DNA from: Rhodococcus sp. B7740
GTDB taxonomy: Bacteria > Actinomycetota > Actinomycetes > Mycobacteriales > Mycobacteriaceae
Direction: 5' to 3'
Length of the DNA: 64,000 nucleotides
NCBI RefSeq assembly: GCF_000954115.1
Contig: NZ_CP010797.1
Coordinates: forward strand, 3,782,001 to 3,846,000
Below, one piece after another: positions 12,787 through 61,170 of the stretch. Within the stretch, counting starts at the first letter, position 1; each line of letters starts with the position of its first letter. The notes beneath the pieces are model-generated. The model was not told the DNA's origin. It searched no databases and saw only the letters and a list, made by a program, of their open reading frames with translations. A program made the position numbers and the translations under genes.

Positions 12787-13156
12787 CGTTTCTCCACCGG
12801 CCCCACGTCCACTCGATGTGACATCGACCCCCCAAAAGTCCACTGAATGTGACATTGAGTGCCCTCGAGTGCCGAGAGGTTCGAAGCGGATTCGGCGGCC
12901 CGGTTGTGATCGGACCCAAGGCGGTCTGTGCTTCGGCGCCCACATGTCCAGACAGTCGCCGGTTCTGTGTCGTATCCGTATTTCGATCCTTAGCGTGGTC
13001 GCTGTGCAAAGCACGTCGGTTCTCGGATCGATGTGGATGGTCGCGACGGCGCACCGCAGGGGGGTGTGCCGTCGTCCGATCTCGGTGGACGCTGTTCGCC
13101 ACTGTCTCGAATCGGTTGGCGGTTCGGGCATCTCGAATCTCTAAGGAGTCCCGCAG
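12787..13156. other. Non-coding gap before the desaturase gene
   Basis: A 370-bp stretch with one copy of the 55-bp palindromic repeat (12807-12861) and an AAGGAG at 13143-13148 serving the downstream ATG. Open frames on the plus strand here (for example 12818-13144) have no RBS or family likeness and run through the repeat. The desaturase promoter must lie here, but no convincing -35/-10 pair was found. Confidence 0.6.
12807..12861 (+). repeat. 55-bp inverted-repeat element, copy A
   Basis: Begins GTCCACTCGATGTGACATCG and ends TGAATGTGACATTGAGTG, with centre ACCCCCCAAAAGTCCAC. The right arm is an inverted copy of the left with a few changes. It lies between the tRNA-Ala terminator and the desaturase gene. 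Confidence 0.9.
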
Positions 13157-14107
13157 ATGACGCGTGTTCTCGATCATGAAGAGCTGTTGACGGAACTCGA
13201 CGGCACTCTGGAAGCCAATTTGAATCGCCATCTGTCGATGGCGAAAGAATGGCATCCGCATGATTACGTTCCGTGGGATCTGGGTCGGAACTTCGCGGCG
13301 ATGGGTGGGCAGGACTGGTCTCTGGAGCAGTCGTCGTTGTCGGAACTGGCTCGCACGGCGATGATCACCAATTTGCTCACCGAGGACAATCTGCCGTCGT
13401 ATCACCGGGGGTTGGCAGACAACTTCTCGTTGGACGGTGCCTGGGGGACGTGGGTGGGGCGTTGGACTGCGGAAGAGAATCGCCACGGCATCGTCATGCG
13501 CGACTATCTGGTCGTGACCCGAGCGGTCGACCCGGTGGAGCTGGAGCGGGCTCGAATGCATCACATGACGGTGGGCGTCGATGCGCCGATGGATGGCGCG
13601 AATTTTCTCCATTCGGTGGCGTACGTGACGTTTCAGGAGTTGGCGACGCGGGTGTCGCATCGCAACACGGGTCTGGCGTGCGGAGATCCGGTGGCGGATC
13701 GAATGTTGGCTCGTGTTGCCGCGGACGAGAACCTGCACATGATCTTCTATCGGAACCTCGGTGAGGCGTCGCTGGATCTGGTGCCCGATCAGATGGTCCG
13801 CGCCATCACCGATGTCGCGACCGACTTCCAGATGCCCGGTCTGAACATGCCCAATTTCCGCAAGAATGCGATGACCTTGGCCAAGCACGGGATCTACGAT
13901 CTGCGGCAGCATCTGGACGAGGTGTTGATGCCTGTCTTGCGCAAGTGGAAGATCTTCGAGCGCAACGATTTCACGGGTGAGGGCGAGCGGGATCGTGACC
14001 GGCTGGCAGCCTTCGTCGAAGACCTGGCAGTCAAGGCGACCAAGTTCGAGGAGTCTCGCGATCGTCTGCTTGCCAGGGAGGCGGCACGCGCCGAGAAGGC
14101 GTCCTGA
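13157..14107 (+). CDS. Acyl-[ACP] desaturase (ferritin-like di-iron)
   Basis: Soluble fatty-acid desaturase of the plant stearoyl-ACP/DesA family that inserts a cis double bond into an acyl chain carried on ACP or a similar carrier. The 316-residue protein shows the di-iron ligands Glu76 (LLTEDNLPSYH), Glu107-x-x-His110 (AEENRHG), Glu161 (FQELATRVSH) and Glu191-x-x-His194 (ADENLH). AAGGAG eight bases upstream supports the ATG. It sits alone between the tRNA-Ala terminator and a diguanylate cyclase gene, in a block absent from this spot in M. tuberculosis. Regiochemistry cannot be read from the sequence. A reductase partner is not adjacent. Confidence 0.93.
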   Translation: MTRVLDHEELLTELDGTLEANLNRHLSMAKEWHPHDYVPWDLGRNFAAMGGQDWSLEQSSLSELARTAMITNLLTEDNLPSYHRGLADNFSLDGAWGTWVGRWTAEENRHGIVMRDYLVVTRAVDPVELERARMHHMTVGVDAPMDGANFLHSVAYVTFQELATRVSHRNTGLACGDPVADRMLARVAADENLHMIFYRNLGEASLDLVPDQMVRAITDVATDFQMPGLNMPNFRKNAMTLAKHGIYDLRQHLDEVLMPVLRKWKIFERNDFTGEGERDRDRLAAFVEDLAVKATKFEESRDRLLAREAARAEKAS

Positions 14108-14261
14108 CCTGCTACGTCTTCGCCGGCCAGAGTCGTGATCACGTCTCGGAGGTGTTAGAGTCCGGGCATCGTTGGGTCATGTGAGGCGATGGCCGTAGTG
14201 CGTGGGGAGGGCCGATGGTGCCTGGGGGGTATCGGGTGAGTGGTGGTGTTCCTTTCGGTGA

Positions 14262-15311
14262 ATGCTGCCTCCAGTCGGCCGAATCATGGTCTTGCACGGT
14301 TGGAATCGACTGGTGAGCAGGCTCAGGTTCGACGAGTCCGGACGCATGCTCGCCGTGTTCGCGGCGGTCACCACGGTTCTGTACGCCGCCAGCGCGATAG
14401 CGTCGTGGTCGAATCTGACCGGTGCGCAGCAGGTTCTGGCCGCTTTGGCTCTGATACTGGGTCCGACGGCGATCGTGGTGCTGGCAAGGGCGGGTGTGCC
14501 GAGCCCCAAGCAGGCGGTGGGATTGGCGACCGCATTGTCGGTGATGGCACTCGCCTGCGCGTTGGGGAGCAGCGACACCATGCCGGCGTTCTTGATCTGC
14601 GTCCAGGCGGCCATGTTCCTCGGCATGCACATCGGTGCGTTCTGGTCCGAACGCAGTGCAGGCATTTGGGTTGCAGTGCTTGCTGTTTCGGCGGTCATCG
14701 GAGCGGCGATCGCGCCGTACGGAACGCCGTTCATCAGTTACATCCTCGTGGCGCTCGGCATCGTCGGTGCCACGGAGGTGTTCGGTGTCTTCGCGCGCCG
14801 AATGCGCTATTCCGCGACGCACGACGCTCTGACCGGCCTGCTCAACAGATTCGGGTTCGAGTCCAAGATCGAGAAGATGTTGCCGGCATGTGCCGCTCGC
14901 GGATTGTCGGTCAGCCTCGCCGTGCTCGACCTGGACAATTTCAAGGAGATCAACGACGAGTACGGCCACATTGCCGGTGACGTCCTGCTCGCCCGGGTCT
15001 CGAAGGCATGGAAGGGGCAGTTGACCCGACGCGACGTTCTCGGTCGGCTCGGCGGAGACGAGTTCGTGCTGTTCATGCCGGGGGTTCTCGAAACGGAGGC
15101 CTGGCAGATCATCGAGCGACTGCGCCGCGCTCATCGTGCGGAATGGAGCGTCGGATTGGCCTGCATGCCCGCGGGTCGCCGCTGGGGTGAGATCTATCGG
15201 GCAGCCGACGCCGATCTGTACCGAGCGAAGCGAAGCCGTCCGCCGAGGACGAGTCGGCCGTCCGATCCCGACGCCGGGTACAGCGGACCGATTCGCAGGA
15301 TCGCGCAGTAG
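14262..15311 (+). CDS. Membrane diguanylate cyclase (GGDEF domain)
   Basis: Makes the second messenger cyclic di-GMP from two GTP. The N-terminal about 180 residues are hydrophobic with five to six predicted helices (for example AVFAAVTTVLYAASAIASW and ISYILVALGIVGATEVFGVFA). A GGDEF domain follows, starting at THDALTGLLNRFGFE, with DLDNFKEINDEYGH and an intact GGDEF at 264-268. The residues five before GGDEF read TRRD, not RxxD, so product feedback through an I-site is unlikely. The start is uncertain: ATG at 14262 or 14286, neither with a good RBS. The membrane part resembles MASE-type sensors but no family can be named. Confidence 0.9.
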   Translation: MLPPVGRIMVLHGWNRLVSRLRFDESGRMLAVFAAVTTVLYAASAIASWSNLTGAQQVLAALALILGPTAIVVLARAGVPSPKQAVGLATALSVMALACALGSSDTMPAFLICVQAAMFLGMHIGAFWSERSAGIWVAVLAVSAVIGAAIAPYGTPFISYILVALGIVGATEVFGVFARRMRYSATHDALTGLLNRFGFESKIEKMLPACAARGLSVSLAVLDLDNFKEINDEYGHIAGDVLLARVSKAWKGQLTRRDVLGRLGGDEFVLFMPGVLETEAWQIIERLRRAHRAEWSVGLACMPAGRRWGEIYRAADADLYRAKRSRPPRTSRPSDPDAGYSGPIRRIAQ

Positions 15312-15332
15312 CACTCCGTCGATGCAGCGTTG

Positions 15333-15367
15333 ATCCCCAGATTTCATCCACAAGCTGGGGATAGATT
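15333..15367 (+). terminator. Hairpin plus T-tract after the GGDEF gene
   Basis: ATCCCCAG and CTGGGGAT form an 8-bp stem around a 14-base loop, 21 bases after the stop codon, followed by AGATTTT. The loop holds TCATCCACA, one mismatch from the DnaA box TTATCCACA. Confidence 0.6.
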
Positions 15368-15430
15368 TTCCCGCGCGGTGCACTTCTCGCGTTGACTCGT
15401 CGACAACGACGATGCTGCGGGGGATACGCG

Positions 15431-17062
15431 ATGGTCACTCTCGACGAGTTCAGAACATGGGACAGCCGAGTGCTGGAAGCCGCGTCCGAAGCCCTGATGT
15501 GGCGGTGGCGTGAAGTGACTGCCGTGCACGATTCGGTAGCGGACGCGGCCATGGGCACAGGCTGGGACGGTCCTGCGGCCGAGGCGGCGCGTGAGGCGAT
15601 GAGCCGCATCCGATCCGATCTGGCAGACATCGCAGCCGAGTTGCTTCGGATCGCGACCTGTACCGCGGATGCCTCGATCGACATGCAGAGTCTGGTCGCT
15701 GCCCTCCGCTCGGTGGAGCAGAGAGCGGCGGACGAGCGATTCGCGGTCGAATCCGATGGCTCGGTGTCCGACGCTGCAGCGTCGTATTCGGTTGCGCTCG
15801 TGGATCTGTGGTCGACGATGCGAGAGCGGCGGCGGTGCCGTGACGAGCTCGCCGAGCGAATCGCGCAGCTGATTCGTACGGCCACGGACTTCGACGACTT
15901 CCTTGCCCGACGCCTCGCCGGGGACACGTCCGCAGCCTCCGTCGCGGCGGCAGTTGCGGCTTCGGTGCCGCGCGACGGGTCACCGGCGGCCAATGCTGCC
16001 TTCTGGAGCGCGCTCTCGCCTGCGGCACGAACCAGGTTGCTCGTCGAACAGCCCGCGCTGATCGGCAATCTCGACGGCCTGCCTGGACGGGTACGGGACA
16101 GCGCCAACCGCCGAGTGTTGGCCGCCGAGCGTATCCGCCTCCGCGCCGTCCAGGCCGAACTGCAGAAAGAGTTGGACGACAACGTGTTCGGCGGGATCTT
16201 CAGTGACGCCGATGCCGGACTCGAGCAGACTCGCACACGGCTGGCATCACTCGATGCGATCGACGCGACGCTGGCGCAAGGAGCTCGACAGCTCCTTGTC
16301 CTCGACAATTCCTCGTACGAGGAGACGATGGCGGCCGTGGCGGTCGGCGATGTCGATACCGCAACCCATGTCGCCGTCTTCGTGCCCGGTCTCGGCTCGA
16401 CGGTGCACGGTCATCTTCTCCGCTACGACGGCGACATGGAGAACCTCGAAAGCACTGTGCAGCAACTTGTTTCGCAAGACGGACCGCAATCTGCGGCTGC
16501 CGTGACCTGGCTGGACTACCAAGCCCCTCAGGTGGGGTGGAGCTTGCTCGATCCGGATCGGACCGTGGTCTCGGGTGCGGCTGCGCAGGCGGGAGCCGAT
16601 CGACTGGTTCCGTTTCTGAACGGCCTCGACGCCGCGCGTGCGGGCGATCCGCATCTGTCGGTGTTGGCCCACTCCTACGGATCCCTCACGGCAGCATCTG
16701 CGCTCCGAGGTGACACGGGAGTCGACGAGTTCGTGGCTCTCGGGTCACCGGGGCTCGGCACACACAGCGTCGCGGACCTTCAGCTTCCCGTCGGACACAC
16801 CTTCGTAGCGGAGGCCCAGGGCGATATCGTCGCCGATCTCGCCGCGTTCGGCCGCGATCCGGGCGCACTCGACGGAGTCACACTGCTGTCCACCGAGCCG
16901 TCCGACGGGGCCGGCGGCTCGATCGGTCACAGCGACTATCTCACCGAGGGGACCACCAGCGGACACAACACGGCACTGGTCGTCGCCGACCGCGGCGCTG
17001 AGGCCGTGATCAGAACGAGGCCGGGTCTGCTCGACCTGCTGCAGAAAGCTCTGTACCTATGA
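15431..17062 (+). CDS. DUF1023 alpha/beta-hydrolase with N-terminal helical domain
   Basis: A 543-residue protein. Residues 1-100 (AAMGTGWDGPAAEAAREAMSRIRSDL) look like a WXG100-type helical hairpin. The C-terminal about 220 residues are the actinobacterial DUF1023 hydrolase domain with THVAVFVPGLGSTV, the nucleophile Ser415 in LAHSYGS, FVALGSPGLG, and a candidate catalytic His in GHSDYL. There is no signal peptide. ATG at 15431 is preferred over an upstream start at 15392 because the extra residues look non-coding. The WXG100 resemblance raises the possibility of ESX-type export, but that is inference; the substrate is unknown. The 3' end overlaps the convergent cwsA by 6 bp. Confidence 0.85.
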   Translation: MVTLDEFRTWDSRVLEAASEALMWRWREVTAVHDSVADAAMGTGWDGPAAEAAREAMSRIRSDLADIAAELLRIATCTADASIDMQSLVAALRSVEQRAADERFAVESDGSVSDAAASYSVALVDLWSTMRERRRCRDELAERIAQLIRTATDFDDFLARRLAGDTSAASVAAAVAASVPRDGSPAANAAFWSALSPAARTRLLVEQPALIGNLDGLPGRVRDSANRRVLAAERIRLRAVQAELQKELDDNVFGGIFSDADAGLEQTRTRLASLDAIDATLAQGARQLLVLDNSSYEETMAAVAVGDVDTATHVAVFVPGLGSTVHGHLLRYDGDMENLESTVQQLVSQDGPQSAAAVTWLDYQAPQVGWSLLDPDRTVVSGAAAQAGADRLVPFLNGLDAARAGDPHLSVLAHSYGSLTAASALRGDTGVDEFVALGSPGLGTHSVADLQLPVGHTFVAEAQGDIVADLAAFGRDPGALDGVTLLSTEPSDGAGGSIGHSDYLTEGTTSGHNTALVVADRGAEAVIRTRPGLLDLLQKALYL

Positions 17063-17437
17063 CGGCGTGTCGTCGTAGTCGGCCAGACTCGGCGGAACGT
17101 CGGCAGGCGGGGGAACCTCGTTGCGACGGCGACCGAGGAAGAACACGACACCTCCGACGACGGCAGCAGCGGCACCGAACACCAGGATTCGGCGGGTCCG
17201 ACGTGATCCGGCGTCGACCGTGACCAGCGCTGGGGTGCGATTCGCTTCGGCAATACGCTCCGCGGTCACCGCTCGCCGCTGCGCAGCCTGCTTGCGTGCC
17301 AGCCCGTAACCCCGTCTGGCCAACAGCAGGCCCACTCCGGCCGGACCCTTGCTTGCGGCAGATGCGGCTCCGAGCAGCGCGGACGCTGCGGTACCGGTGG
17401 TCGACCGACCCCGGTCGGGCTTCGTTGTGCTCGTCAT
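17057..17437 (-). CDS. cwsA: CwsA-like cell-wall synthesis membrane protein (Rv0008c-like)
   Basis: A 126-residue protein with an Arg/Ala-rich N-terminal part, a basic helical middle ([28 protein letters not shown]), one membrane helix near 85-105 ([20 protein letters not shown]) and a short Pro-rich acidic tail. Position between tRNA-Ala and ppiA, on the minus strand, and topology match M. tuberculosis CwsA (Rv0008c), reported to work with CrgA and Wag31 in peptidoglycan synthesis and cell shape. GTGAGGG just before the ATG at 17437 supports the start; a longer frame to 17617 overlaps ppiA. Identification is mainly positional, because the family diverges quickly. Confidence 0.75.
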
Positions 17438-19022: not shown

Positions 19023-19025
19023 CCA

Positions 19026-19080
19026 GTCCACTCGATGTGACATCGACCCCCCAAAAGGCCACTGAATGTCACATCGAGTG
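19026..19080 (+). repeat. 55-bp inverted-repeat element, copy B
   Basis: GTCCACTCGATGTGACATCG ... TGAATGTCACATCGAGTG, centre ACCCCCCAAAAGGCCAC. It starts 3 bases after the rhomboid stop codon and ends 18 bases before the stop of the convergent PH-domain gene, so it sits exactly in a convergent junction. Confidence 0.92.
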
Positions 19081-46379: not shown

Positions 46380-46434
46380 GTCCACTCGATGTGCCATTGA
46401 CTGCCGAAAAGGCCACTCAATGTCACATCGAGTG
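46380..46434 (+). repeat. 55-bp inverted-repeat element, copy C
   Basis: GTCCACTCGATGTGCCATTG ... TCAATGTCACATCGAGTG, with the centre ACTGCCGAAAAGGCCAC. It lies between the end of the FabH-like gene and the start of the PPOX-type gene, both on the minus strand. Confidence 0.92.
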
Positions 46435-46490: not shown

Positions 46491-47495
46491 CTACAGGTTG
46501 GGGAGTTTGACTACCTGTCCGGCGTAGGAGAGTCCGGCACCGAAGGCGAGCAGCAGTGCTGTGTCTCCTGCCTTTGCTTTGCCGGTGCGCAGTAGTTCTT
46601 CCATGGCCAGGGGGATCGAGGCTGCCGAGGTGTTGCCGGTTTCGGCGATGTCATTGGCGACGGGTGTGTCCTCGTTCAGATTCAGGCTCTTGGCGAGGAG
46701 TTCGGTGATGCGGCTGTTGGCCTGGTGGGGGATGAAGGCGTGCAGTTCGTCGGTTTTGATACCGGCGACGTCGAGGACGCGCTGCGCGGCTTTGCCCATT
46801 TCGAATGCGGCCCAGCGGAAGACGGAGATGCCGTTCATCCGGATCCAGGGGCGCTCGAGGCCTTCTTCGGTGATGTAGTCGTACCAGTCGGTGGTCTGGA
46901 CGATGGCGTCGGATTGCGAGCCGTCGGAGCCCCAGACGGCGGGTCCGATCTCGGTTTCGTCGCTCTGGCCGACGACCACGGCACCGGCGCCGTCGGCGAA
47001 GATGAAGCGGGTGGTGCGGTCGTAGGGGTCGGTGGTCACGCTGAGCTGCTCTGCACCGATGACGAGGACGTACTTGGACGTTCCGGCCTTGACCAGGTCC
47101 GATGCGACTGCGAGGGAGTAGCAGAAGCCCGCGCAGCCGGCGCAGATGTCGAATGCGGCCGGCCCCTTGGTGCCGAGTCCGTGCGCTACTTTTGCAGCTG
47201 CTTGGGGTGTGAGTTCGAGATGCGTCGAGGTGGCGACGATGACGGTGTCGACTTGGTCGGCGGTGATTCCGCTGGCTTCGAGGGCCTTACGACCTGCCGC
47301 GATGGACATCTCGACGACGTTTTCCTTGGGATCGGCGAAGCGCCGGTTCTTGATTCCGGACCGCGTCTGGATCCACTCGTCGCTCGAGTCGATGAATTCA
47401 CAGATCTCGTCGTTGGTCACGACTCTCTCGGGGCGGTGAACGCCGAGTCCGAGTAGTTTCGACTGTCGTCCCTGCGTCGTGCTGATCGCACCCAT
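46491..47495 (-). CDS. Beta-ketoacyl-ACP synthase III (FabH-like)
   Basis: Condensing enzyme of 334 residues joining an acyl-CoA starter to malonyl-ACP or a similar extender. The catalytic triad is intact: Cys in FDICAGCAGFCYSLAVA, His in FIPHQANSRI, Asn in ETGNTSAASIPLA. KLLGLGVHRPERVVTNDEI and SDEWIQTRSGIKNRRFA are typical of KAS III. ATG at 47495 has GAGG nine bases upstream. It stands apart from other fatty-acid genes; its neighbour is an alpha/beta hydrolase. It could be a housekeeping FabH or an accessory KAS III for wax, olefin or specialised lipid synthesis. Confidence 0.9.
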   Translation of the reverse strand: MGAISTTQGRQSKLLGLGVHRPERVVTNDEICEFIDSSDEWIQTRSGIKNRRFADPKENVVEMSIAAGRKALEASGITADQVDTVIVATSTHLELTPQAAAKVAHGLGTKGPAAFDICAGCAGFCYSLAVASDLVKAGTSKYVLVIGAEQLSVTTDPYDRTTRFIFADGAGAVVVGQSDETEIGPAVWGSDGSQSDAIVQTTDWYDYITEEGLERPWIRMNGISVFRWAAFEMGKAAQRVLDVAGIKTDELHAFIPHQANSRITELLAKSLNLNEDTPVANDIAETGNTSAASIPLAMEELLRTGKAKAGDTALLLAFGAGLSYAGQVVKLPNL

Positions 47496-47595: not shown

Positions 47596-48492
47596 TCACA
47601 CCAGTTCGGTGATGAGGGCTGCGACCTCGGCGGGCTTGTCGATCATGGCGTGGTGGTGGGCGGGCATGACGACAGTGAAGTCGGCCCGCAGATACGCGGC
47701 CAGCTTGCGTTGAGTCTTGATCCATCGCTTGCCCCACGGGGAGGGTCGTCCGGTGTGGGCTGCGGCGACGATGACCGGAACGACGAGGGGCGAACGCTTC
47801 CGCATTCTGTTCAGTTCGGCGGCGAGATCCGGGTAGACGACATCCTCCACCAGGGCGGCGGCGAGGTAGGTGGGTCGTCGATAGATGTCGTCGACCCAGT
47901 CGAACGTCTCCTGCGGCGTGCCGTCGGGCGGTGTCGCCTGATTGAGGACGCGTCGCACACGCGGTCCGACCAACTTCTGCAGGCCGGTCTTGCTGAGCGC
48001 GGTGGCGATGACGTGGGCAGCCTCGACGCGCACGAGGGTCGGGACGAAGCGTGGGGGGTCGGATTCGGCGCTGGAATCGAGCAACAGAATCCCGCGGGTG
48101 CGCGACGGGTACAGCCGGGCCACAGCTTCTGCGTAGAAGCCGGCTATCGAATGACCTACCACGACGGCCGGGTCGGTGACTCCGAGTGCGTCGAGGACAC
48201 CGATGATTCGGTCTGCCTCCCCGCGGACGGTGGGTGTGGCACCGGCGGGCAAGGGGTCGCTGAGTCCGAAGCCGGGCCGGTCGAGCACGACCACGTGATG
48301 GTGGGCGCTCAGGATGTCGACGGTGTCGTTCCAGTCGAACCAATTACTGCCGAGGCCTCCGCACAGGACGACCGTGGGGCCGGTTCCGCGTACGAACAGA
48401 TGCAGACGTTGCCCGTCCACCTCGACGTACTGACCGGGAGGATGTTTCACGGGAAACAACGCACTGCGTTCGGCTCGATCCCCGCTGTCCAT
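47596..48492 (-). CDS. Alpha/beta hydrolase
   Basis: A 298-residue hydrolase of the epoxide hydrolase/haloperoxidase-like superfamily. Seen: TVVLCGGLGSNWFDWNDTVDIL (oxyanion-hole region), VVLDRPGFGLSDPL, the nucleophile Ser in VVGHSIAGFYAEAVARLYP, LLLDSSAESD, and a candidate catalytic His in MPAHHHAMID. ATG at 48492 is preferred because GGAG lies eight bases upstream; GTG at 48501 overlaps that RBS. It precedes the FabH-like gene in the same direction across a hairpin. The substrate is unknown. Confidence 0.88.
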   Translation of the reverse strand: MDSGDRAERSALFPVKHPPGQYVEVDGQRLHLFVRGTGPTVVLCGGLGSNWFDWNDTVDILSAHHHVVVLDRPGFGLSDPLPAGATPTVRGEADRIIGVLDALGVTDPAVVVGHSIAGFYAEAVARLYPSRTRGILLLDSSAESDPPRFVPTLVRVEAAHVIATALSKTGLQKLVGPRVRRVLNQATPPDGTPQETFDWVDDIYRRPTYLAAALVEDVVYPDLAAELNRMRKRSPLVVPVIVAAAHTGRPSPWGKRWIKTQRKLAAYLRADFTVVMPAHHHAMIDKPAEVAALITELV

Positions 48493-51998: not shown

Positions 51999-52053
51999 CA
52001 CTCAATGTGACGTTCAGTGGCCTTTTCGACAGTCGATGTCACATCGAGTGGAC
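51999..52053 (-). repeat. 55-bp inverted-repeat element, copy D (reverse orientation)
   Basis: Read on the minus strand: GTCCACTCGATGTGACATCG ... TGAACGTCACATTGAGTG, with centre ACTGTCGAAAAGGCCAC. It is the only copy in this orientation. It lies in the divergent gap between lysX and the AbiEi-like gene. Confidence 0.92.
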
Positions 52054-52133: not shown

Positions 52134-52160
52134 TCGTCCACAGGGCGTGGGTTATCCACA
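52134..52160 (+). promoter_or_regulatory. DnaA-box-like pair
   Basis: TTATCCACA (52152-52160, perfect) and TCGTCCACA (52134-52142, one mismatch from TTGTCCACA) lie in direct orientation, each followed by GGGC. They are 58 bases or more upstream of the AbiEi-like start codon. The function is inferred. Confidence 0.4.
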
Positions 52161-52217: not shown

Positions 52218-53207
52218 ATGGCCATGAAGCGGGGTGGAGCACGAGTCGATGCGAAGGTGATCGCGGCTGCGTCGGATCGCGGCTTCATGAGGACAGCGCA
52301 CTTACTCGAGCTCGGGGTGGCGTCGAAGACCATCGTTCGACGCACCCAGCCGGACGGCAGCTGGTCACGGGCGTTACCTGGGTTGGTGTTCTTGAAGAAT
52401 CGTTCGCTGACGCCGATTGAACGCGCCACCGCGGTGGCGATCTACTGCGGCAAGGATGCTCTCATCAGCGGCCGGGCAGGGCTGGCGTTGCATGGATTGG
52501 GCACGTCGGGTTCGTTGGAGGAGACGTTCGCACTGATTCCCGAGCCGCAACATCGCAAGTCCGTGGGCTTCGCTGTCGTGGAGCGGACGTGGCGAATGCC
52601 GACGGCGGAAATCAAGTCGGGACTTCGCGTCGCCCCGATCGTTCGGTGTCTGTGCGATGCAGTTCGACGGATGAAGAATGCCGAGCAGTGCATGGCGTTG
52701 ATTGCCGGTGTCGTGCAGGGAGGTGCGGCCACCGTGGACGCGATCACGAAGGAACTGAACGCCGGTAGTACGCGGGGAACTGCGATGCCACGTCGAGTTC
52801 TGAGGGAACTGGCTGCAGGTGCGCACTCGGTGGCGGAGGCTCAGGCCCAGAAGCTGTACGCGCGCAGCGGACTTCCGACGATGCAGCACAACGTGGCTGT
52901 CCATGACGAGCAGGGCAGGTTCCTGCTGATAGCCGACAACTGGCTCGACGACGTCGCGTTGGATTGGGAGATCGATTCGCTCGAATACCATCTCTCACCC
53001 GCGGCGCACAGGGCGACGGTGGCGCGTCGGGAACGAGCGCAGAATGCCGGCCTCATCGTGGTGACACATCTGCCGAGCGATATTCGGGAGGACCCGGAAC
53101 GCGTTCTGTCCGACCTTCGTGCGCGTTACAAGCAGGCCAAGGAGCGACCGCGACCGAATGTCACGGTCCGACCGCGAGCGGATCAGGCTCGTAGTCGCTC
53201 GGGTTGA
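52218..53207 (+). CDS. AbiEi-antitoxin-like winged-helix protein with DUF559/Vsr-like C-terminus
   Basis: A 329-residue protein. The N-terminal about 75 residues (IAAASDRGFMRTAHLLELGVASKTIVRRTQPDGSWSRALPGLVFL) resemble the winged-helix domain of AbiEi type IV antitoxins. The C-terminal part (VAEAQAQKLYARSGLPTMQHNVAVHDEQGRFLLIADNWLDDVALDWEIDSLEYHLSPAAH) looks like the endonuclease-type DUF559/very-short-patch-repair fold, with Asp-x-x-x-Asp and Glu-Ile-Asp positions where nuclease acidic residues would sit. No AbiEii-type toxin gene is adjacent. ATG at 52218 or 52224; neither has an RBS. Such stand-alone fusions are common in actinobacteria and are functionally unexplained. The 3' end overlaps the GNAT gene by 25 bp. 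Confidence 0.75.
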   Translation: MAMKRGGARVDAKVIAAASDRGFMRTAHLLELGVASKTIVRRTQPDGSWSRALPGLVFLKNRSLTPIERATAVAIYCGKDALISGRAGLALHGLGTSGSLEETFALIPEPQHRKSVGFAVVERTWRMPTAEIKSGLRVAPIVRCLCDAVRRMKNAEQCMALIAGVVQGGAATVDAITKELNAGSTRGTAMPRRVLRELAAGAHSVAEAQAQKLYARSGLPTMQHNVAVHDEQGRFLLIADNWLDDVALDWEIDSLEYHLSPAAHRATVARRERAQNAGLIVVTHLPSDIREDPERVLSDLRARYKQAKERPRPNVTVRPRADQARSRSG

Positions 53208-53743
53208 TACACCCACACCATGTGCTTGCCGGTCTCGGACGCAGCTGCGATCGGTCGATGCTCGATCCTGTCCAGCACGAATCCAAGCCTCTTGGGTACG
53301 GCCTGGCTCCGGAGATTCGCTGCATCACAATGAATTTCGACTCGATTGATTCCGTCCAGCCTCACGGCCTCCCGTATGAGGGCACCGACCGCCTCGCTTA
53401 TCACCCCACGTCCCTCGGCCCCGGCGTCGAGCCAGAAACCCAATTCGATACCGTGCGGGCCGATCCGGCGATGCATCCCGATCTTGCCCAGAAACGCACC
53501 GCCGTCGCGCTCGAAAATTCCGTAATCGAACATCTCCCCGGCATTCCACTGCTCGACGGCCTCCGCAATGCGAGCCGATTGCACCGAAGGCTGGGCCGCT
53601 TCTTCGGTCGCCCACCCCATCCACGGCGCAAGGCGTGCGAGATTGCGACCGATCACGTCGGCAACGGCAACGGCATCGCCGGCCGACTCGCGACGAATGA
53701 GAAGTCGGTCGGTGACAATCCGATCGGGAGGTACATCGAACAT
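53183..53743 (-). CDS. GNAT-family N-acetyltransferase (RimJ/RimL-like)
   Basis: A 186-residue acetyl-CoA-dependent acetyltransferase. Seen: VTDRLLIRRESAGDAVAVADVI, GAFLGKIGMHRRIGPHGIELGFWLDAGAEGRGVISEAVGALIREAV (acetyl-CoA loop with GRGV) and NRVEIHCDAANLRSQAVPKRLGFVLD, all typical of the RimJ/RimL ribosomal-protein N-acetyltransferase group, which also includes drug and amino-acid modifying enzymes. The substrate cannot be assigned. It is convergent with and overlaps the AbiEi-like gene; repeat copy E lies upstream. Confidence 0.9.
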   Translation of the reverse strand: MFDVPPDRIVTDRLLIRRESAGDAVAVADVIGRNLARLAPWMGWATEEAAQPSVQSARIAEAVEQWNAGEMFDYGIFERDGGAFLGKIGMHRRIGPHGIELGFWLDAGAEGRGVISEAVGALIREAVRLDGINRVEIHCDAANLRSQAVPKRLGFVLDRIEHRPIAAASETGKHMVWVYQPERLRA

Positions 53744-53810: not shown

Positions 53811-53865
53811 GTCCACTCGATGTGCCATCGACGGGCGAAAAGGCCACCGAAGGTCACATTGAGTG
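53811..53865 (+). repeat. 55-bp inverted-repeat element, copy E
   Basis: GTCCACTCGATGTGCCATCG ... CGAAGGTCACATTGAGTG, with centre ACGGGCGAAAAGGCCAC. The right side continues GAC, so the outermost eight bases are GTCCACTC and GAGTGGAC, a perfect terminal inverted repeat (to 53868). It lies between two minus-strand genes. Confidence 0.9.
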
Positions 53866-55805: not shown

Positions 55806-56870
55806 TTAGATCACGGTGTCCTTGGTTTGTGGGTCGTTTGCGCGTCCTGTCGATGCTCGTTCTTCGACGCTCCAGATCGCTTCGTCCACGCTGTCGCTGA
55901 GTCCGAGCACCCACCGAGCCGCCGACCGGCCCTGATCGAACAGCGACTGCGCAACGGTGGTCAATCCGGCCTCGGCCGCGGCAGGGGAGTCGTCCCACCC
56001 GGTCACGGCCAGTCGCCCCGGAACGTCGATTCCGGCCGTGGCCGCAGCATCGAGCACCCCGAGGGCAAGTTCGTCGCTCATCACGAGCAATGTGTCGATA
56101 GCGTTGTCCTGCAACAACACCTGCGCTGCTCGGTCCCCTTCGGGGCGGGCGTTGTTGGTGGTGAACAGTGTCGGTACCGTCGACCATTCGATCCCCGATT
56201 GCAGGCATGCGTCTCGGTAACCCTCGAGTCGAGCTCGGGTCACCGGCATCGAGATGTCCGACGCGTCCGCGCCACGCACGATCGTCGATTCGCGTCGGGT
56301 ATCGGGCCTGAGAGCGACGATGGCAGGTCGAGATCGGCTGTGCAATGCGGCGGTGGCCACTGCGTCGGCTGCCGCCCTGTCGTCGATGGCGATCGAGTTC
56401 AGGCCGGGGTGGTCGGGCCCACCCTGGATGCACGTGGGGCGGCCGGTCTCGACGAGCACGTCGAGCAAGGGGTCGTCGATCTCCGTGGTCCACACCACGT
56501 ACCCGTCGACCTGTGCGTCTCGGATGCGAGCGTTGTCGGTCTCGCGGTGCAGGTTCGGCAGCATCACCAGCGCGGTGTCGGCGTCGAGACACGCTTCGGC
56601 GATGCCGGACACAAACCGTCGAGCCTGGGGATCCTCGAAGGCGTAGGTGAGCTTCTCGCCGAGGACGACGCCGATGCTGTCGTGCCTGCCGCTGCGCAAC
56701 GACCGCGCGGTGCGGTTGGGACCGGCGTATCCGAGGGCAGCAGCTGCCTCGTGCACACGATCGCGGGTGGCCGCGGAAACTCGGCTCGGTCGGTTGTAGG
56801 TGTACGAGACGCTCATGGTGGAAACGCCTGCGGACGCTGCGACGTCGGCCATGGTCACCCGAGTGTTCAC
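55806..56870 (-). CDS. LacI-family transcriptional regulator
   Basis: A 354-residue repressor. The N-terminal helix-turn-helix and hinge helix are VTMADVAASAGVSTMSVSYTYNRPSRVSAATRDRVHEAAAALGY; the ligand-binding domain (IGVVLGEKLTYAFEDPQARRFVSGIAEACLDADTALVML ... DTLLVMSDELALGVLDAAATAGIDVPGRLAVTGWDD) is full length. GTG at 56870 is chosen by the family N-terminus; the open frame to 56963 runs over the divergent gene. A palindromic operator lies in the 47-bp divergent gap, so it likely controls the MFS gene at 56918 and itself. The ligand is unknown. Confidence 0.92.
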   Translation of the reverse strand: MNTRVTMADVAASAGVSTMSVSYTYNRPSRVSAATRDRVHEAAAALGYAGPNRTARSLRSGRHDSIGVVLGEKLTYAFEDPQARRFVSGIAEACLDADTALVMLPNLHRETDNARIRDAQVDGYVVWTTEIDDPLLDVLVETGRPTCIQGGPDHPGLNSIAIDDRAAADAVATAALHSRSRPAIVALRPDTRRESTIVRGADASDISMPVTRARLEGYRDACLQSGIEWSTVPTLFTTNNARPEGDRAAQVLLQDNAIDTLLVMSDELALGVLDAAATAGIDVPGRLAVTGWDDSPAAAEAGLTTVAQSLFDQGRSAARWVLGLSDSVDEAIWSVEERASTGRANDPQTKDTVI

Positions 56871-56895
56871 CCGCCCACTGTAGCGCGCGGCACCG

Positions 56896-56919
56896 ATGAT
56901 GTGTAACGATACACAGCAT
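56896..56919. promoter_or_regulatory. LacI-type operator palindrome at the MFS start codon
   Basis: TGTGTAACGATACACA (56900-56915) has perfect 6-bp arms; including flanks the symmetry covers 24 bp with one mismatched pair. It lies 26 bases from the LacI-family start and its right end reaches the ATG of the divergent MFS gene at 56918, where bound repressor would block transcription. Confidence 0.75.
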
Positions 56920-58117
56920 GTCGTCGCCGCTACCGAAGCTGCTGGTGCTCGCCGCAGCCGCATTCATCTACGTCACGGCGGAAACGCTGCCCGTGGGGTT
57001 GCTCCCCGAGATATCCGGGGACCTCGGCGTCGGCGAATCCGCCGTGGGTCTCCTACTGACCTTCTACGCGTACGGCGTCGCCGTGATGACGATGCCGTTG
57101 ATCCGGTTCGTGCGGCAGTGGCCCCGACGACGCGTCGTGGTCATCACCGTTGCCGCACTGGCACTCTCGCAACTCCTGTCGGCGATATCGGTCGGATATC
57201 CGATGTTGGTGATCTCTCGAATGCTCTGCGCGGCAACGCACGGAGTCTTCTGGGCTGTCGTCGCTCCGGTCGCGGCATCGCTGGCTCTACCCGGTAAGCA
57301 GGGCAAGGCCATCGCGACGGTGTATGCCGGTACCTCGTTGGCGTTGGTTGCCGGCAACCCGCTCACTGCCGCACTGGGCCAGTGGCTCGGATGGCGCACC
57401 GCAGCAACGATTCTCGGCATCGTCGCCGCAGCCATCGCGGTGGCGCTGTACTTCGTCCTCCCGGCACTACCGGTCACCCGAGCGGTCTCGGAAACGAAGA
57501 AGACACCGCGGGTGCTCGACGGCTCCCTGGCCGTTCTGTGCGCAGTGACGTTCCTGGCCGTCCTCGGTCATTTCGCCGCGTACACCTACTTCTCGGTGAT
57601 CGTCGATCGTGCCATCGGATCGGCGGGAACCACCCTGACCTTGATGCTGATGCTGTACGGACTGTTCGGGGTGGTCGGCATCTGGGTGATCGGGAGAACC
57701 TACGACCGGTGGCCCCGGCACTCGACCATCGCGGCCCTCGGTGCGGTCGCAGCGGCAGTGGCAATTCTCTGGTGCACTCTGAGCGGGGCTCCGGGCAGCT
57801 GGGCCGTGTTCGCCGTCGGTGCCATCGCGTTGTGGGGGCTGGCCTTCACCACCCTTCCGGTGTGTATTCAATCGGCCGTGGTCAGAGCCGCCCCGGCCGA
57901 TGCGGACAAGGCGTCGGCGATCTACGTCGTTTCCTTCCAGTTGGCGATCGCGACGGGCGCACTGCTGGGCGGTGTGGTGATCGACCTGAGCGGCATCGGG
58001 GCCGTCACCGCTGCTGCAACAGCCCTGGTCGCCGCAGCGCTGGCCGTGGTCGTGTTGGCGCGCAGAACCTTTCCGAGTCGCTACGCACAGGAGCCGGTGA
58101 CAGCAACGGCACGCTGA
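56918..58117 (+). CDS. MFS transporter, DHA1 (AraJ/SotB sugar-efflux-like)
   Basis: A 399-residue 12-helix transporter. Seen: LVLAAAAFIYVTAETLPVGLLPEISGDLGVGESAVGLLLTFYAYGVAVMTMPLIRFVRQWPRRRVV (helix 1 acidic residue Glu and motif A), RMLCAATHGVFWAVVAPVAASLALPGKQGKAIATVYAGTSLALVAGNPLTAALGQWLGWR. The pattern matches AraJ/SotB/CmlA-like proteins, which export sugars or drugs. It is divergent from a LacI-family gene with an operator overlapping the start, so expression is probably inducible. No RBS is visible; a leaderless or short-leader transcript is possible. Confidence 0.9.
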   Translation: MSSPLPKLLVLAAAAFIYVTAETLPVGLLPEISGDLGVGESAVGLLLTFYAYGVAVMTMPLIRFVRQWPRRRVVVITVAALALSQLLSAISVGYPMLVISRMLCAATHGVFWAVVAPVAASLALPGKQGKAIATVYAGTSLALVAGNPLTAALGQWLGWRTAATILGIVAAAIAVALYFVLPALPVTRAVSETKKTPRVLDGSLAVLCAVTFLAVLGHFAAYTYFSVIVDRAIGSAGTTLTLMLMLYGLFGVVGIWVIGRTYDRWPRHSTIAALGAVAAAVAILWCTLSGAPGSWAVFAVGAIALWGLAFTTLPVCIQSAVVRAAPADADKASAIYVVSFQLAIATGALLGGVVIDLSGIGAVTAAATALVAAALAVVVLARRTFPSRYAQEPVTATAR

Positions 58118-58150
58118 CCGTTGAGGTACCCCGCACGATAGGGTCAGCAC

Positions 58151-58238
58151 GCGACGAACGAGGGAATCCGGTGCAATTCCGGAGCTGGCGCGCAACGGTG
58201 ACGAGTGAGAGCTCGAAGTCCGAATGCTCGGACGTCGC
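58151..58238 (+). promoter_or_regulatory. Cobalamin (B12) riboswitch
   Basis: Conserved core GGGAATCCGGTGCAATTCCG followed by GAGCTGGCGCGCAACGGTGA and, near 58216, AAGTCCGAATGCTCGGAC, which corresponds to the B12-box region. Flanking GCGACG (58151-58156) and CGTCGC (58233-58238) can form helix P1. It lies 56 bases upstream of an ABC transporter lipoprotein gene. Downstream GAGC...GCTC (58267-58286) can enclose the AGGAAG RBS, suggesting control of translation. Confidence 0.85.
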
Positions 58239-58294
58239 GATCCACCTCCAACCGCGGCTCCGCGACACGAGCCCTCAGCAGGAAGCTCTTCACG

Positions 58295-59323
58295 ATGCGC
58301 ACCACCCTCGCCGTACTAGGCGCTGTCTCGTTCCTCGTTCTCGCCGGCTGTTCGTCCACGGCGACGACCGACGCGGCCACCCAGACCACAGGAAACTATC
58401 CGCTGACCATCGACAATTGCGGTCGCGACGTCGTCGTCGACGCCCCGCCGCAACGTGCGGTCTCGTTGAATCAGGGTTCGACGGAAATCCTTCTCTCGCT
58501 CGGCCTCGCCGACCGTATGGTCGGCACCGCTACCTGGACCGACCCCGTCCGTGCGAACCTCGAGTCGGAGAACGCGAAGGTGCCCAGGTTGGCGGACAAC
58601 AAACCTTCCCTCGAGGTGGTGTTGGACGCCGAGCCCGACTTCGTCACCGCGTCGTTCGGCGGCACCCTCGGACCGGGAGGCGTCGCTGACAGAGACCAGT
58701 TCGAGCAGCTCGGTGTGCCGAGCTATCTCTCTCCCACCGACTGCAACGGCAAGACCGACGACAGCGTCAACTCCGACGGCGCGCGTACCTCGCCACTCGA
58801 GATCGAGACCGTCTACCAGGAGATTCGCGACCTCGCGGCCATCTTCGACGTGCGTGAACGCGGTGAACGCTTCATCGCCGAGCTGCAGGATCGCTTCGCG
58901 AAGGCATCGGGAGCCGTCGACGCCTCCGGTGTGACGCTGGCGTACTGGTTCGCCGACACCGACACCCCCTACATGGCCGGATGCTGTGGATCGTCGGGCA
59001 TCATCACCGAATCTGTCGGTGCCGAGAACATCTACGCCGACACCACCGACGAATGGCCACAGGTCAATTGGGAGAGTGTTCTCGATCGTGATCCCACCGC
59101 GCTCGTGCTCGCGGACCTGAGCCGACGGAGCATCGCCGGTGATGCTCTCGACAGCAAGATCGCCTTCCTGGAATCGAATCCCGTCACGAGTCGGCTCACC
59201 GCCGTCGAGAGCAAGCGGTACATCGTCGTCAACGGTGCCGACCTCAACCCGTCGATCCGTACGATCGACGGGGTCGAAAAAGTTGCTGCTGCTCTGCAGA
59301 ACTGGGGATCGACCACCCCATGA
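58295..59323 (+). CDS. ABC transporter substrate-binding lipoprotein, BtuF/FepB-like (cobalamin type)
   Basis: A 342-residue lipoprotein. Signal peptide with lipobox LAGCS (Cys19), then a class III binding fold of PF01497: PLTIDNCGRDVVVDAPPQRAVSLNQGSTEILLSLGLADRMVGTATW, KPSLEVVLDAEPDFVTA, MAGCCGSSGIITESVGAENIYADTTDEWPQVNWESVLDRDPTALVLADL. The last stretch resembles proteins labelled proposed F420-0 transporters in TIGRFAM, but the B12 riboswitch upstream argues for corrinoid uptake. ATG at 58295 has AGGAAG upstream. It is the first of three genes coupled by ATGA overlaps. Confidence 0.9.
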   Translation: MRTTLAVLGAVSFLVLAGCSSTATTDAATQTTGNYPLTIDNCGRDVVVDAPPQRAVSLNQGSTEILLSLGLADRMVGTATWTDPVRANLESENAKVPRLADNKPSLEVVLDAEPDFVTASFGGTLGPGGVADRDQFEQLGVPSYLSPTDCNGKTDDSVNSDGARTSPLEIETVYQEIRDLAAIFDVRERGERFIAELQDRFAKASGAVDASGVTLAYWFADTDTPYMAGCCGSSGIITESVGAENIYADTTDEWPQVNWESVLDRDPTALVLADLSRRSIAGDALDSKIAFLESNPVTSRLTAVESKRYIVVNGADLNPSIRTIDGVEKVAAALQNWGSTTP

Positions 59324-60345
59324 GCCGGACCGATCGCGGGTTGCTGATCCCGCTTCTGCTCGGTGGCTTCGTGGTGTTGGTGCTTTCGATCGGCGTGGCC
59401 GTGACCATCGGTCCGGCCAGCGTGTCGGTATCCGATGTGTATCGAGTGATACTGGGGCACATCGGGATCGGTACGGCCGAAGTGAGCCGCATCGAGGACG
59501 GCATCGTCTGGCAGTTGCGATTGCCCCGAACGCTGCTCGCCGCCGTCTGCGGTGCAGGCCTCGCGCTGTGCGGAGCCATCATGCAATCGCTGCTGCGCAA
59601 TCCCCTCGCCGACCCGTTCGTACTGGGTATCTCGTCGGGCGCATCCACCGGTGCCGTCGTCGTCGCGGTGCTCGGCGTCGGTGGCGGTGCACTGTCGCTG
59701 TCCACCGGAGCCTTCGCCGGAGCGCTGCTGTCGTTCGTGCTGGTCATGCTGCTCGCCGCAGGTGCGGGCGGCGGCAACGACCGCGTCGTGCTCGCGGGAG
59801 TGGCAGGTACACAACTGTTCTCGGCTCTGACGTCGTTCATCGTCATATCTTCGGCCGACGCCGAGCAAACCCGAGGAGTCTTGTTCTGGCTGCTCGGTTC
59901 CTTGAGCGGCGCCGACTGGACGGACGTGGCACTGTGCGGCACTGTGGCACTGCTGGGCATGGCGGTGTGCCTGTTCAACACCTCGGCCCTCGATGCTTTC
60001 ACTTTCGGGCACGACGCGGCCGCATCCCTCGGCGTTCCGGTGAAGTACGTGCGAATCCTGTTGCTGGTCATCACCGCATTGATCACGGCCGCCCTCGTCA
60101 GCGCCGCCGGTGCCATCGGATTCGTAGGGCTGGTGCTACCGCACGCTGCTCGTTTCCTCGTGGGGTCGCGCCATCGAAGACTGCTCCCCACGACGGTGGT
60201 GATGGGGGCAATATTCATGGTCTGGGTCGACACCATCGCTCGAACGGTGTTCGCACCACAGGAAATTCCGGTCGGAGTGGTCACGGCCCTCACCGGCGTT
60301 CCGGCCTTCGCCTTGATTCTCTTTCGGCTCAGGAGATCTCGATGA
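59320..60345 (+). CDS. FecCD/BtuC-family ABC transporter permease
   Basis: A 341-residue permease with about ten helices, of the type forming the translocation pore for B12, heme or siderophores. Seen: WQLRLPRTLLAAVCGAGLALCGAIMQSLLRNPLADPFVLGISSGAS, VLAGVAGTQLFSALTSFIVISSADAEQTRGVLFWLLGSLSGADW, and GFVGLVLPHAARFLVGSRHRRLLPTT. The ATG overlaps the stop codon of the binding-protein gene. It is preceded by the riboswitch-controlled leader of the same operon. Substrate as for the binding protein. Confidence 0.95.
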   Translation: MSRTDRGLLIPLLLGGFVVLVLSIGVAVTIGPASVSVSDVYRVILGHIGIGTAEVSRIEDGIVWQLRLPRTLLAAVCGAGLALCGAIMQSLLRNPLADPFVLGISSGASTGAVVVAVLGVGGGALSLSTGAFAGALLSFVLVMLLAAGAGGGNDRVVLAGVAGTQLFSALTSFIVISSADAEQTRGVLFWLLGSLSGADWTDVALCGTVALLGMAVCLFNTSALDAFTFGHDAAASLGVPVKYVRILLLVITALITAALVSAAGAIGFVGLVLPHAARFLVGSRHRRLLPTTVVMGAIFMVWVDTIARTVFAPQEIPVGVVTALTGVPAFALILFRLRRSR

Positions 60346-61130
60346 CACTGCACGCCAGAGACATTCGATGGACCCGGAGTGGACATCCGATCCTCGACGG
60401 CATCAGCTTCGCGCCCGAACCGGGAGAGACCATCGGCCTGATCGGCCCCAACGGCTCGGGCAAATCCTCCCTGTTGCGCATTCTTGCCGGCATCGTCGCC
60501 CCCGACAGCGGCGACGTGCTGCTCGACGGAGACAACCTGCGAACACTGCGCCGACGTCGCGTCGCCAGACGGGTGGCCATGGTCGACCAACACTCCGACA
60601 CCGACGTCGACATCAGCGTCCGCGACGTCGTCCGCCTCGGCCGCATCCCACATCACGGCATCCTCGGCGGCGACGCATCCGACGACGACGCCGCCATCGC
60701 ACGAGCACTCACCGACACCGCCATGGCATCGAAAGCCACCCGACGGTGGCACACCCTCTCCGGCGGCGAACGCCAACGAGTCCAGATCGCCCGAGCCCTC
60801 GCCCAGCAACCCACCGAACTACTGCTCGACGAGCCGACCAATCACCTCGACATCCAACATCAACTCGACATCCTCACCCTCGTCGCAGGCCTACCCCTGA
60901 GCAGCTACATCGCCCTGCACGACCTCAACCTCGCCGCCATGTTCTGCGACCGAATCATCGTCCTCGATCACGGCACCATCGTGGCATCGGGAACCCCGAA
61001 CGAAGTGATCACCGAACACCTCGTGCGCACGGTATACAACGTGAACGCCAGCGTCACGAATGCCGACAACTACCCCCAGGTGACCTATCGCCGCCCCACC
61101 CCTTCCGACCCTGGAGTCCACTCGATGTGA
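60342..61130 (+). CDS. FecE/BtuD-family ABC transporter ATPase
   Basis: A 262-residue ATPase. Motifs: Walker A IGPNGSGKSS at about 32-41, Q-loop near VDQHSDTD, signature LSGGERQRVQIARAL, Walker B ELLLDEPTNHLD and switch His in YIALHDLNLAAM. ATG at 60342 overlaps the permease stop. The open frame upstream of the ATG is a shadow of the permease. The last codons, Val-His-Ser-Met and TGA, come from repeat copy F, so the gene either ends where the element inserted or has always ended there. Confidence 0.95.
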   Translation: MTLHARDIRWTRSGHPILDGISFAPEPGETIGLIGPNGSGKSSLLRILAGIVAPDSGDVLLDGDNLRTLRRRRVARRVAMVDQHSDTDVDISVRDVVRLGRIPHHGILGGDASDDDAAIARALTDTAMASKATRRWHTLSGGERQRVQIARALAQQPTELLLDEPTNHLDIQHQLDILTLVAGLPLSSYIALHDLNLAAMFCDRIIVLDHGTIVASGTPNEVITEHLVRTVYNVNASVTNADNYPQVTYRRPTPSDPGVHSM

Positions 61131-61170
61131 CATTGACTGCCGAAAAGGCCACTGGATGTCACATTGAGTA
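61116..61170 (+). repeat. 55-bp inverted-repeat element, copy F
   Basis: GTCCACTCGATGTGACATTG ... TGGATGTCACATTGAGTA, with centre ACTGCCGAAAAGGCCAC. Its first bases encode the last four residues and the stop codon of the ABC ATPase gene; its right end is 39 bases from the convergent NTF2-like gene. Confidence 0.92.

Follow-up and report, generated by a model that had tools for sequence, protein, structure and literature searches.

The DNA analyzed here, referred to as the window, is a stretch of 64,000 nucleotides of the Rhodococcus sp. B7740 chromosome (NZ_CP010797.1, positions 3,782,001 to 3,846,000). It contains six copies of a 55-bp element (element A), two of which flank the gene for an AbiEi-like protein and its neighbor:

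12807-12861, plus strand: dispersed element copy, after a tRNA-Ala gene; at the same place in genomes G014 and G023
19026-19080, plus strand: dispersed element copy in a convergent gap, 3 nt past a predicted stop codon
46380-46434, plus strand: dispersed element copy, 56 nt after the stop of the minus-strand gene at 46491-47495
51999-52053, minus strand: element copy on the upstream flank of the AbiEi-like gene, with degenerate palindromes
52137-52160, plus strand: twin TCCACA motifs (52137 and 52155), between the element and the gene start
52224-53207, plus strand: AbiEi-like gene (327 aa, start codon inferred), the proposed partner of the element
53183-53743, minus strand: GNAT acetyltransferase gene (PF13302, E 3.6e-22)
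53811-53865, plus strand: element copy on the opposite flank of the gene pair, in inverted orientation to 51999-52053
61116-61170, plus strand: dispersed element copy in a convergent gap, overlapping a predicted gene end

The GNAT gene is convergent with the AbiEi-like gene, overlaps it slightly, and lies inside the flanking pair of elements. We take the twin TCCACA motifs to be DnaA-box-like; such pairs, 18 to 20 bp apart, were present upstream of the AbiEi-like gene at all eight loci read, with one box mismatched at locus 2 of G010.

All six copies listed in the sequence-only reading, including the one on the minus strand, were confirmed, and they align without gaps (41 of 55 columns invariant). 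Searching the whole genome (5.34 Mb) with a 39-bp pattern and up to three mismatches gave 16 copies, and the reversed pattern, used as a control, gave none. A covariance model built from the 16 copies returned 16 matches at 74 to 86 bits; antisense matches of the same 16 places reached at most 34 bits, and anything else at most 21 bits. The pattern search and the covariance scores exclude chance as an explanation of the family. Hundreds of copies per genome had been predicted, and a search finding only these few copies had been named as speaking against the proposal; the prediction of hundreds fails at 16, but the family is real, conserved, and associated with a gene.

The arms of the element are inverted copies of each other, as first described, but they also repeat directly, with a period of 31 bp (GnCCACnnnAnGTnnCATnGA in each arm). 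The element starts with GTCCAC and mostly finishes with GAGTG or GAGTA. In all 91 copies compared, columns 17 and 48 hold A, whereas their arm-hairpin partners, columns 11 and 42, vary, which indicates that pairing is not what is conserved in the arms originally proposed to form hairpins. None of the nine predicted hairpin pairs has both sides changed among the 16 copies, and an RNA hairpin as the conserved feature was ruled out on the basis of the missing compensatory changes and of invariant columns facing variable partners. Integron attC sites were ruled out on their core motifs. At gathering thresholds, Rfam gave nothing at the elements of the window and matched three tRNAs and ASdes elsewhere in it. 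One element copy with its flanks had no blastn match in phages or plasmids, and the exact pattern had none in viral contigs. We found no title or abstract on this element or on AbiEi genes with dispersed repeats in a search whose scope excluded subscription journals and preprints.

The copies had been described as sitting between genes or at gene ends, and this is borne out by the 340 kb examined, in which 10 of 12 copies have a predicted upstream stop codon no more than 61 nt away, one of these copies overlapping the gene end; random placement would give 18% (length weighted) or 44% (gap weighted). Convergent gaps hold six of the 12 copies, compared with 21% (length weighted) or 17% (gap weighted) at random. 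The gene predictions behind these counts were made with a home-made gene caller. On the chromosome, 11 of the 16 copies fall within 3.71 to 3.88 Mb, from 67 kb to the left to 100 kb to the right of the inferred dnaA. With the two gene-flanking copies left out, only 0.41% of chromosome positions are as central to the copies as the AbiEi-like gene; its mean log distance to them is 4.849, compared with 4.734 for the best position (at 3.849 to 3.850 Mb, ~15 kb away from the gene) and 5.070 for oriC. The cluster is thus centered nearer to the AbiEi-like gene than to oriC.

A search of related genomes, which the sequence-only reading had suggested, found the element in 14 of the 37 genus genomes, all in one clade, the Rhodococcus fascians group. 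The comparison of orthologous gaps for presence or absence had been suggested likewise. Two other species have all 12 copies of the examined 340 kb in matching positions, while the flanks diverge, and the copy at 46380-46434 is missing from the same gap in all 15 non-carrier genomes with a readable gap; within the clade species read, there was no change in presence or absence. Since the copies barely move within the clade, active mobility was not seen. Element copies are under purifying selection, as follows from places kept while flanks diverge and from 36 of 55 columns being nearly fixed. Between G000 and G023, element identity is 0.885 (584/660), compared with 0.657 at fourfold sites (43,757 sites); the 36 conserved columns are identical at 426 of 432 positions, and the remaining 19 columns are near neutral (158/228, 0.693). 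In G027, the four gaps read that correspond to dispersed copies hold no such element. A C-type palindrome array, however, occupies the same gap as copy 53811-53865 in both G010 and G027, and another lies directly upstream of the gene in both, although not in the same gap as 51999-52053, with other genes between the array and the next shared gene. The dispersed copies therefore seem to be of more recent origin than those flanking the gene. In the 160 kb near the origin of G016, no repeated family was found, and some members of the genus may therefore lack the trait.

The protein encoded at 52224-53207 matches the PADLOC AbiEi profile over residues 14 to 178 (E 6.3e-10) and has no Pfam or NCBIfam match. 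AbiEi profiles match six of six proteins, i.e., the window protein and all five diverged homologues, and these matches are confined to PADLOC; Pfam AbiEi_4 was below the cutoff in two homologues and was not reported for the other four proteins, including that of the window. In the C-terminal part, E205, D238, D242, and H256 are invariant and E249 and D251 nearly so among 14 sequences, and these acidic and histidine residues could be a nuclease motif. However, the structure prediction has a mean pLDDT of 43.6, and a nuclease C-terminal domain thus stays a guess. PDB sequence searches gave nothing credible, and no known transposase family was matched. Phages yielded no match to the protein, viral contigs no confirmed relative, and the plasmid collection one match (R. 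ruber). Among the adjacent genes, no AbiEii/DUF1814 toxin gene was seen, the neighbor being the GNAT gene. The AbiEi-like gene is 48% identical to its G027 counterpart, and since two neighbors are 50% and 58% identical, fast evolution is not special to it.

Palindromic elements were present on both sides at all 16 homologue loci read, i.e., locus 1 in nine carriers, G010, G027, and G004, and locus 2, beside the same acyl-CoA carboxylase gene, in G000, G010, G027, and R. ruber. The count covers close homologues with flanks read and leaves out 15 weaker homologue matches. In all nine carriers read, the flanking copies face outward. The genes are associated with several differently worded families. 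An exact 13-mer of family B occurs in 16 of the 37 genomes (11 to 49 matches in 10 of them and one or two in six) and in none of the 14 carriers of element A. The family looked densest at ~533 kb in G027 (31 of 49 matches, among those listed) and at 4.55 Mb in G010. We had predicted beforehand that family B, in non-carriers, would surround a paralogue, and both dense places hold one (44% identity in G027; in two pieces in G010), with inverted B arrays on both sides (130-nt arms, 91% complementary; 136-nt arms, 84%). With flanking copies left out, the best center of family B in G010 lies ~60 kb from the paralogue, and 2.2% of positions do as well.

At the second paralogue of B7740 (4017340-4018254), the elements on the flanks belong to a further inverted family, D (130-nt arms, 72%). 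In R. ruber, 54-bp elements E flank the homologue (48% identity), and two further copies lie 736 bp and 28.5 kb away, the latter in a convergent gap. Four intact E copies are present in the 50 kb read, and blastn gave 11 places in the whole R. ruber record (both strands of a palindrome). An E 13-mer matches 52 of 301 family genomes (reversed control, one match in each of two genomes), and 11 of the 14 genomes sampled from genus g9 have 8 to 32 matches each, while two g27 genomes have more than 50; among the matches listed, close plus/minus pairs have the same offset in 41 of 43 cases. Some B, D, and E copies score as a single mid-element palindrome or one strong arm rather than as two clear arms. 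G010 keeps B and C elements although both of its genes of the AbiEi-like family are in two pieces.

Two known systems resemble this arrangement. In REPIN/RAYT pairs, as described in excerpts of PMC3116915 and PMC3733652, a single-copy gene is flanked by its element, double palindromes are dispersed between genes, and the wording is specific to the pair. Element A is likewise an intergenic palindromic doublet beside a single-copy gene, and each gene-element pair has its own wording. In contrast to REPIN/RAYT, the partner is AbiEi-like, and no Y1/HUH transposase was found in the B7740 genome; there are 16 copies instead of the more than 100 given for REPs (PMC2817692, in excerpt); the GTAG or CGTC tag that marks one end of REPs (PMC3733652, in excerpt) is absent from the element ends; and the copies are fixed at orthologous places, with constraint on bases rather than on pairing. 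The second system is that of the AbiEi type IV antitoxin operators (abiE IR1-IR2; Rv2827c IR1-IR4): according to excerpts of PMC7319586, AbiEi binds a pair of 23-bp inverted repeats in its own promoter, separated by 3 bp, and Rv2827c binds four. The paired 23-bp palindromes upstream and the AbiEi-like N-terminal part are shared features. However, element A occurs on both flanks of the gene and at dispersed places, the protein has an additional C-terminal part, no DUF1814 toxin was seen next door, and the gap between the palindromes is ~8 bp rather than 3 or 13 bp.

We put at roughly two in three the probability that the elements are REPIN-like dispersed double binding sites of the AbiEi-like protein, which would replace RAYT as the partner. 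The element would comprise two degenerate ~23-bp palindromes with centers 31 bp apart, a putative double site for the 52224-53207 protein, which likely binds it. Two outward-facing copies frame the AbiEi-like gene and its GNAT neighbor, the upstream one probably being autoregulatory, like AbiEi operators. On the stem branch of the R. fascians clade, the element beside the gene would have given rise to ~14 additional copies, most of them in the vicinity of the gene and immediately past the ends of genes, and selection would have maintained these copies since then. Such a system would work like a REPIN/RAYT pair, with a single gene fixed at its locus and dispersed cognate double palindromes of lineage-specific wording. 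We infer that the protein has a part in the spread of the copies, and what selection on them acts on is inferred in the same way.

The probabilities of the alternatives overlap with each other and with that of this explanation. The best of them, although unlikely, is that the copies are pure regulator sites, the AbiEi-like protein being a local transcription factor and the dispersed copies being ordinary operators of a nearby regulon. Tandem 23-bp palindromes would suit AbiEi operators (PMC7319586, in excerpt), the fixed columns are under purifying selection, and invariant bases that show no pairing compensation point to protein contact; however, the positions behind stop codons (10 of 12) and in convergent gaps (six of 12) are atypical for promoters, and the dispersed copies seem younger than those flanking the gene, given the four empty G027 gaps and the C arrays at the gene.

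Somewhat less probable still, the copies could be relics of a dead transposon whose transposase was the AbiEi-like protein, namely its terminal inverted repeats and MITE-like derivatives, which would now be neutral or kept as terminators. The outward-facing copies on both sides of the gene and the dispersed solo copies would fit, as would the C-terminal residues if they form a nuclease motif. Neutral decay is at odds with the element conservation, however; in addition, no target duplications were seen by eye at the 16 copies and their flanks (no empty site being close enough for a clean comparison), the gene occupies the same locus in the species read, and its product matched no known transposase family.

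Chromosome-organizing sites of the origin region are found in other systems, such as parS and the RacA-binding RAMs. That the copies are sites of this kind, bound by the AbiEi-like or another protein, we regard as improbable. Like parS and RAM sites, they are about a dozen conserved noncoding sites on the origin-proximal part of the chromosome; they are conserved across species, no comparable repeat was found in 340 kb opposite the origin, and a parS-like site lies inside the cluster. However, the sequence differs (the parS motif TGTTTCACGTGAAACA was not found in the element, parS-like sites being found elsewhere), oriC is a worse center than the gene, family B centers nearer to its own paralogue, and carriers do not differ from non-carriers in having the canonical parS cluster (six of six genomes). 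The paralogue and center tests led us to drop this as the main reading.

Classical REP/BIME elements moved by a RAYT, although also short intergenic palindromic doublets with the outline of REPIN doublets (PMC3116915, in excerpt), are already contradicted by the copy number, the missing tag, the lack of compensatory pairing, and the RAYT domain PF01797, which was not found in the B7740 genome, ruling RAYT out as the partner, and occurs in one of the 37 genus genomes (carrier G030). What stands of the REP/BIME-type or small nonautonomous element first proposed is thus its architecture and a partner gene flanked by the arms; that gene, expected to encode a RAYT or other transposase, is AbiEi-like and of no known transposase type.

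The AbiEi-like gene thus seems to be paired with short, dispersed DNA sites that form a family of its own, a combination that looks undescribed. More tentatively, gene and sites may represent a new REP-like class, in which AbiEi-type proteins with a nuclease-like C-terminal domain would copy their own double operator with a probability falling with distance, so that gene, sites, and wording would coevolve in each lineage and the kept copies would be conserved landmarks of the origin-proximal chromosome. The spread of short palindromic repeats and their upkeep in bacteria is a long-standing question, which has mostly been linked to RAYT transposases. A second, unrelated partner protein, whose relatives lie beside at least five differently worded families (A to E), would point to more than one origin of the arrangement. 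With 16 sites and one gene conserved clade-wide, the system would be a compact model for tests of binding, spread, and function. If the explanation is true, AbiEi proteins would be not only autoregulators of toxin-antitoxin systems but also proteins with sites of their own dispersed over the genome.

All six copies of the 55-bp double palindrome (element A) that the sequence-only reading reported in the window, at 12807-12861, 19026-19080, 46380-46434, 51999-52053 (reverse strand), 53811-53865, and 61116-61170, are present as it described them. Its extrapolation to hundreds per genome was wrong: Rhodococcus sp. B7740 (G000; one contig, 5,341,557 bases, with the window at 3,782,001-3,846,000) holds 16 copies, both by pattern (up to three mismatches; control, 0) and by a covariance model with a clear score gap beneath its 16 matches. 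The two arms are degenerate versions of a 23-bp palindrome, and GnCCACnnnAnGTnnCATnGA is common to both, with a 31-bp period.

Of 37 genomes from the genus, 14 have element A (carriers); the other 23 gave no match at an E value of 0.01. Across the family, 7 of 251 evenly drawn genomes matched at 1e-4, all of them from the same genus, and the 69 named stretches with an exact match are all titled Rhodococcus or Rhodococcoides, including R. fascians NBRC 12155. A record titled R. ruber (IEGM 1391) also bears the element, so record titles may not follow phylogeny. In a tree of one syntenic locus from 29 genomes, the 13 carriers sampled group as a single clade (100/100), adjoined by two genomes without the element, G010 and G017. 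Seven genomes without the cut locus were left out, as was G014, whose gene start could not be located. The sequence used for G018 was mislocated, and its long branch is unreliable.

All 12 copies within the 340-kb region that surrounds the cluster occupy the same place in carriers G014 and G023. Among the hits listed, all 16 are matched in G014 in order and strand, the flanks having been compared for all except the four distal copies. The identity of element A between G000 and G023 is 0.885 (12 pairs) versus 0.657 at fourfold degenerate sites, and that between G000 and G014 is 0.944 (11 pairs, the one with a deletion excluded) versus 0.790, which speaks against neutral decay. This comparison is independent of column classes, which were derived from the same data as the rates. 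Nine of the 14 carriers yielded 92 copies, of which 91 were counted, the other having a 1-base deletion; among the 91, 36 of the 55 columns show at least 95% conservation and the remaining 19 change at about the rate of neutral sites. Conservation resides in the bases and not in the pairs, and the constraint therefore looks like protein contact on DNA.

A REP-associated tyrosine transposase (RAYT), one of the partners that the sequence-only reading had suggested looking for, does not account for the element, as its domain (PF01797) is absent from G000 and occurs in 1 of the 37 genus genomes. In outline, element A and its proposed partner gene come closest to REPIN/RAYT, from which they differ in transposase, tag, and number; in molecular detail, they come closest to AbiEi operators. 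Our literature search found no paper joining the two kinds of system. On the opposite side of the chromosome nothing comparable recurs, the largest family there filling three gaps in 340 kb. Another short tandem repeat, GAGTGGAGCCTGCGGAACGACCC (period, ~32 to 34), lies at 3968084-3968160 and 3978140-3978190 of G000, and pieces with GAGTGGAGCCTGC recur in the terminus region. In the window, an Rfam ASdes sRNA match (13475-13542, reverse strand) is antisense to a fatty acid desaturase gene.

AbiEi-like genes and associated sites
Window 51999-52053, reverse strand: element A copy
Window 52137-52160: twin TCCACA boxes upstream of the AbiEi-like gene
Window 52224-53207, forward strand: AbiEi-like gene, 327 aa
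Window 53183-53743, reverse strand: GNAT neighbour
Window 53811-53865: element A copy
G000 4,017,340-4,018,254: second paralogue, flanked by its own inverted family D
G027 533,968-534,906: paralogue directly between family B copies (positions from 31 of 49 matches)
G010 4,554,191-4,557,805: paralogue in two pieces, with B copies directly on both sides

The product of gene 52224-53207 matches AbiEi profiles. AbiEi recognizes a pair of 23-bp inverted repeats within its own promoter, and its Mycobacterium tuberculosis relative Rv2827c recognizes four (PMC7319586). The simplest reading of copy 51999-52053 is a putative operator of this type. In the C-terminal part of the protein, E205, D238, D242, and H256 are invariant and E249 and D251 nearly so (14 sequences). 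These residues are reminiscent of PD-(D/E)XK nucleases, but profile searches gave no match for this part. Upstream of the gene, a pair of TCCACA boxes with the same orientation, 18 to 20 bp apart, occurs at all eight loci read (one box has a mismatch at the second-paralogue site, locus 2, of G010). We take these boxes to resemble DnaA boxes, hinting that the gene may be controlled by replication initiation.

In carriers, two element A copies bracket the gene and its GNAT neighbour. The protein is 48% identical to its counterpart in the noncarrier G027, versus 50 to 90% for neighbouring genes, and in G010 and G027 arrays of a differently worded palindrome, C (period, ~30 bp), lie on both sides of the pair: on the GNAT side in the same gap as copy 53811-53865, and on the other immediately upstream of the gene. 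The origin region of G027 contains other palindromic families. A further intergenic family of this genome, with TACGCACGCACG, occupies 10 gaps of 320 kb (567 to 850 kb), often as opposed pairs ~30 bp apart. We had predicted beforehand that a paralogue would lie amid family B, whose highest density is elsewhere, and paralogues were then found there. The homologue in R. ruber is flanked on each side by 54-bp elements (E), a 13-mer of which is dispersed across many genomes of another genus. In G000, G027, G010, and R. ruber alike, locus 2 adjoins one and the same acyl-CoA carboxylase gene. Elements stood on both sides at all 16 loci with flanks read, namely, nine carriers, G010, G027, and G004 at locus 1 (the site of the window gene) and G000, G010, G027, and R. 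ruber at locus 2; outside this count are locus 1 of G003, G036, and unfetched carriers, locus 2 of G003, G023, and G036, and 15 weaker homologue matches (E values, 1e-12 to 5e-4). Flanking element A copies faced outward in all nine carriers read. Both AbiEi-like genes of G010 (4699062-4700050 and 4554191-4557805) appear to be in two pieces, yet the B and C elements persist. The R. ruber sequence NZ_CP145323.1, labelled a plasmid, bears pks13 and fadD32 along with arabinosyltransferase genes, which are usually regarded as chromosomal, and its plasmid label may stem from the assembly.

With the two flanking copies excluded, 0.41% of G000 positions are as central to the element A copies as the AbiEi-like gene or better; the best centre is ~15 kb away, with three copies within 2.3 kb. 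oriC, placed from dnaN, an inferred dnaA preceding it, and parS, is a clearly worse centre. For family B in G010, 2.2% of positions are as central as the paralogue, and the best centre is ~60 kb off. A parS-like site with one mismatch (window 48443-48458), identical in G014, G023, and G027, lies within the cluster.

In G027, the gaps corresponding to those of the dispersed copies hold no counterpart (0 of 4 gaps read), and the copy at 46380-46434, checked for presence or absence as had been suggested, is missing from all 15 noncarriers with a readable gap. Elements flank the gene on each side, by contrast, in the two lineages alike, and the dispersed copies therefore appear to have arisen in the carrier clade. 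In G022 (143107) one gene, and in G024 (136885) a block of genes, between directly repeated copies is missing and one copy is left, as after recombination between them; the G000 copies concerned are 3848535, 3850116, and 3850754, which G026 also lacks. The dispersed copies presumably derive from the gene-flanking ones and were retained thereafter; they may have been copied by the AbiEi-like protein or through recombination near the gene. A bolder reading, which we consider possible but unlikely, is that AbiEi-type proteins with a nuclease-like C-terminal domain may copy their own double operator to new places.
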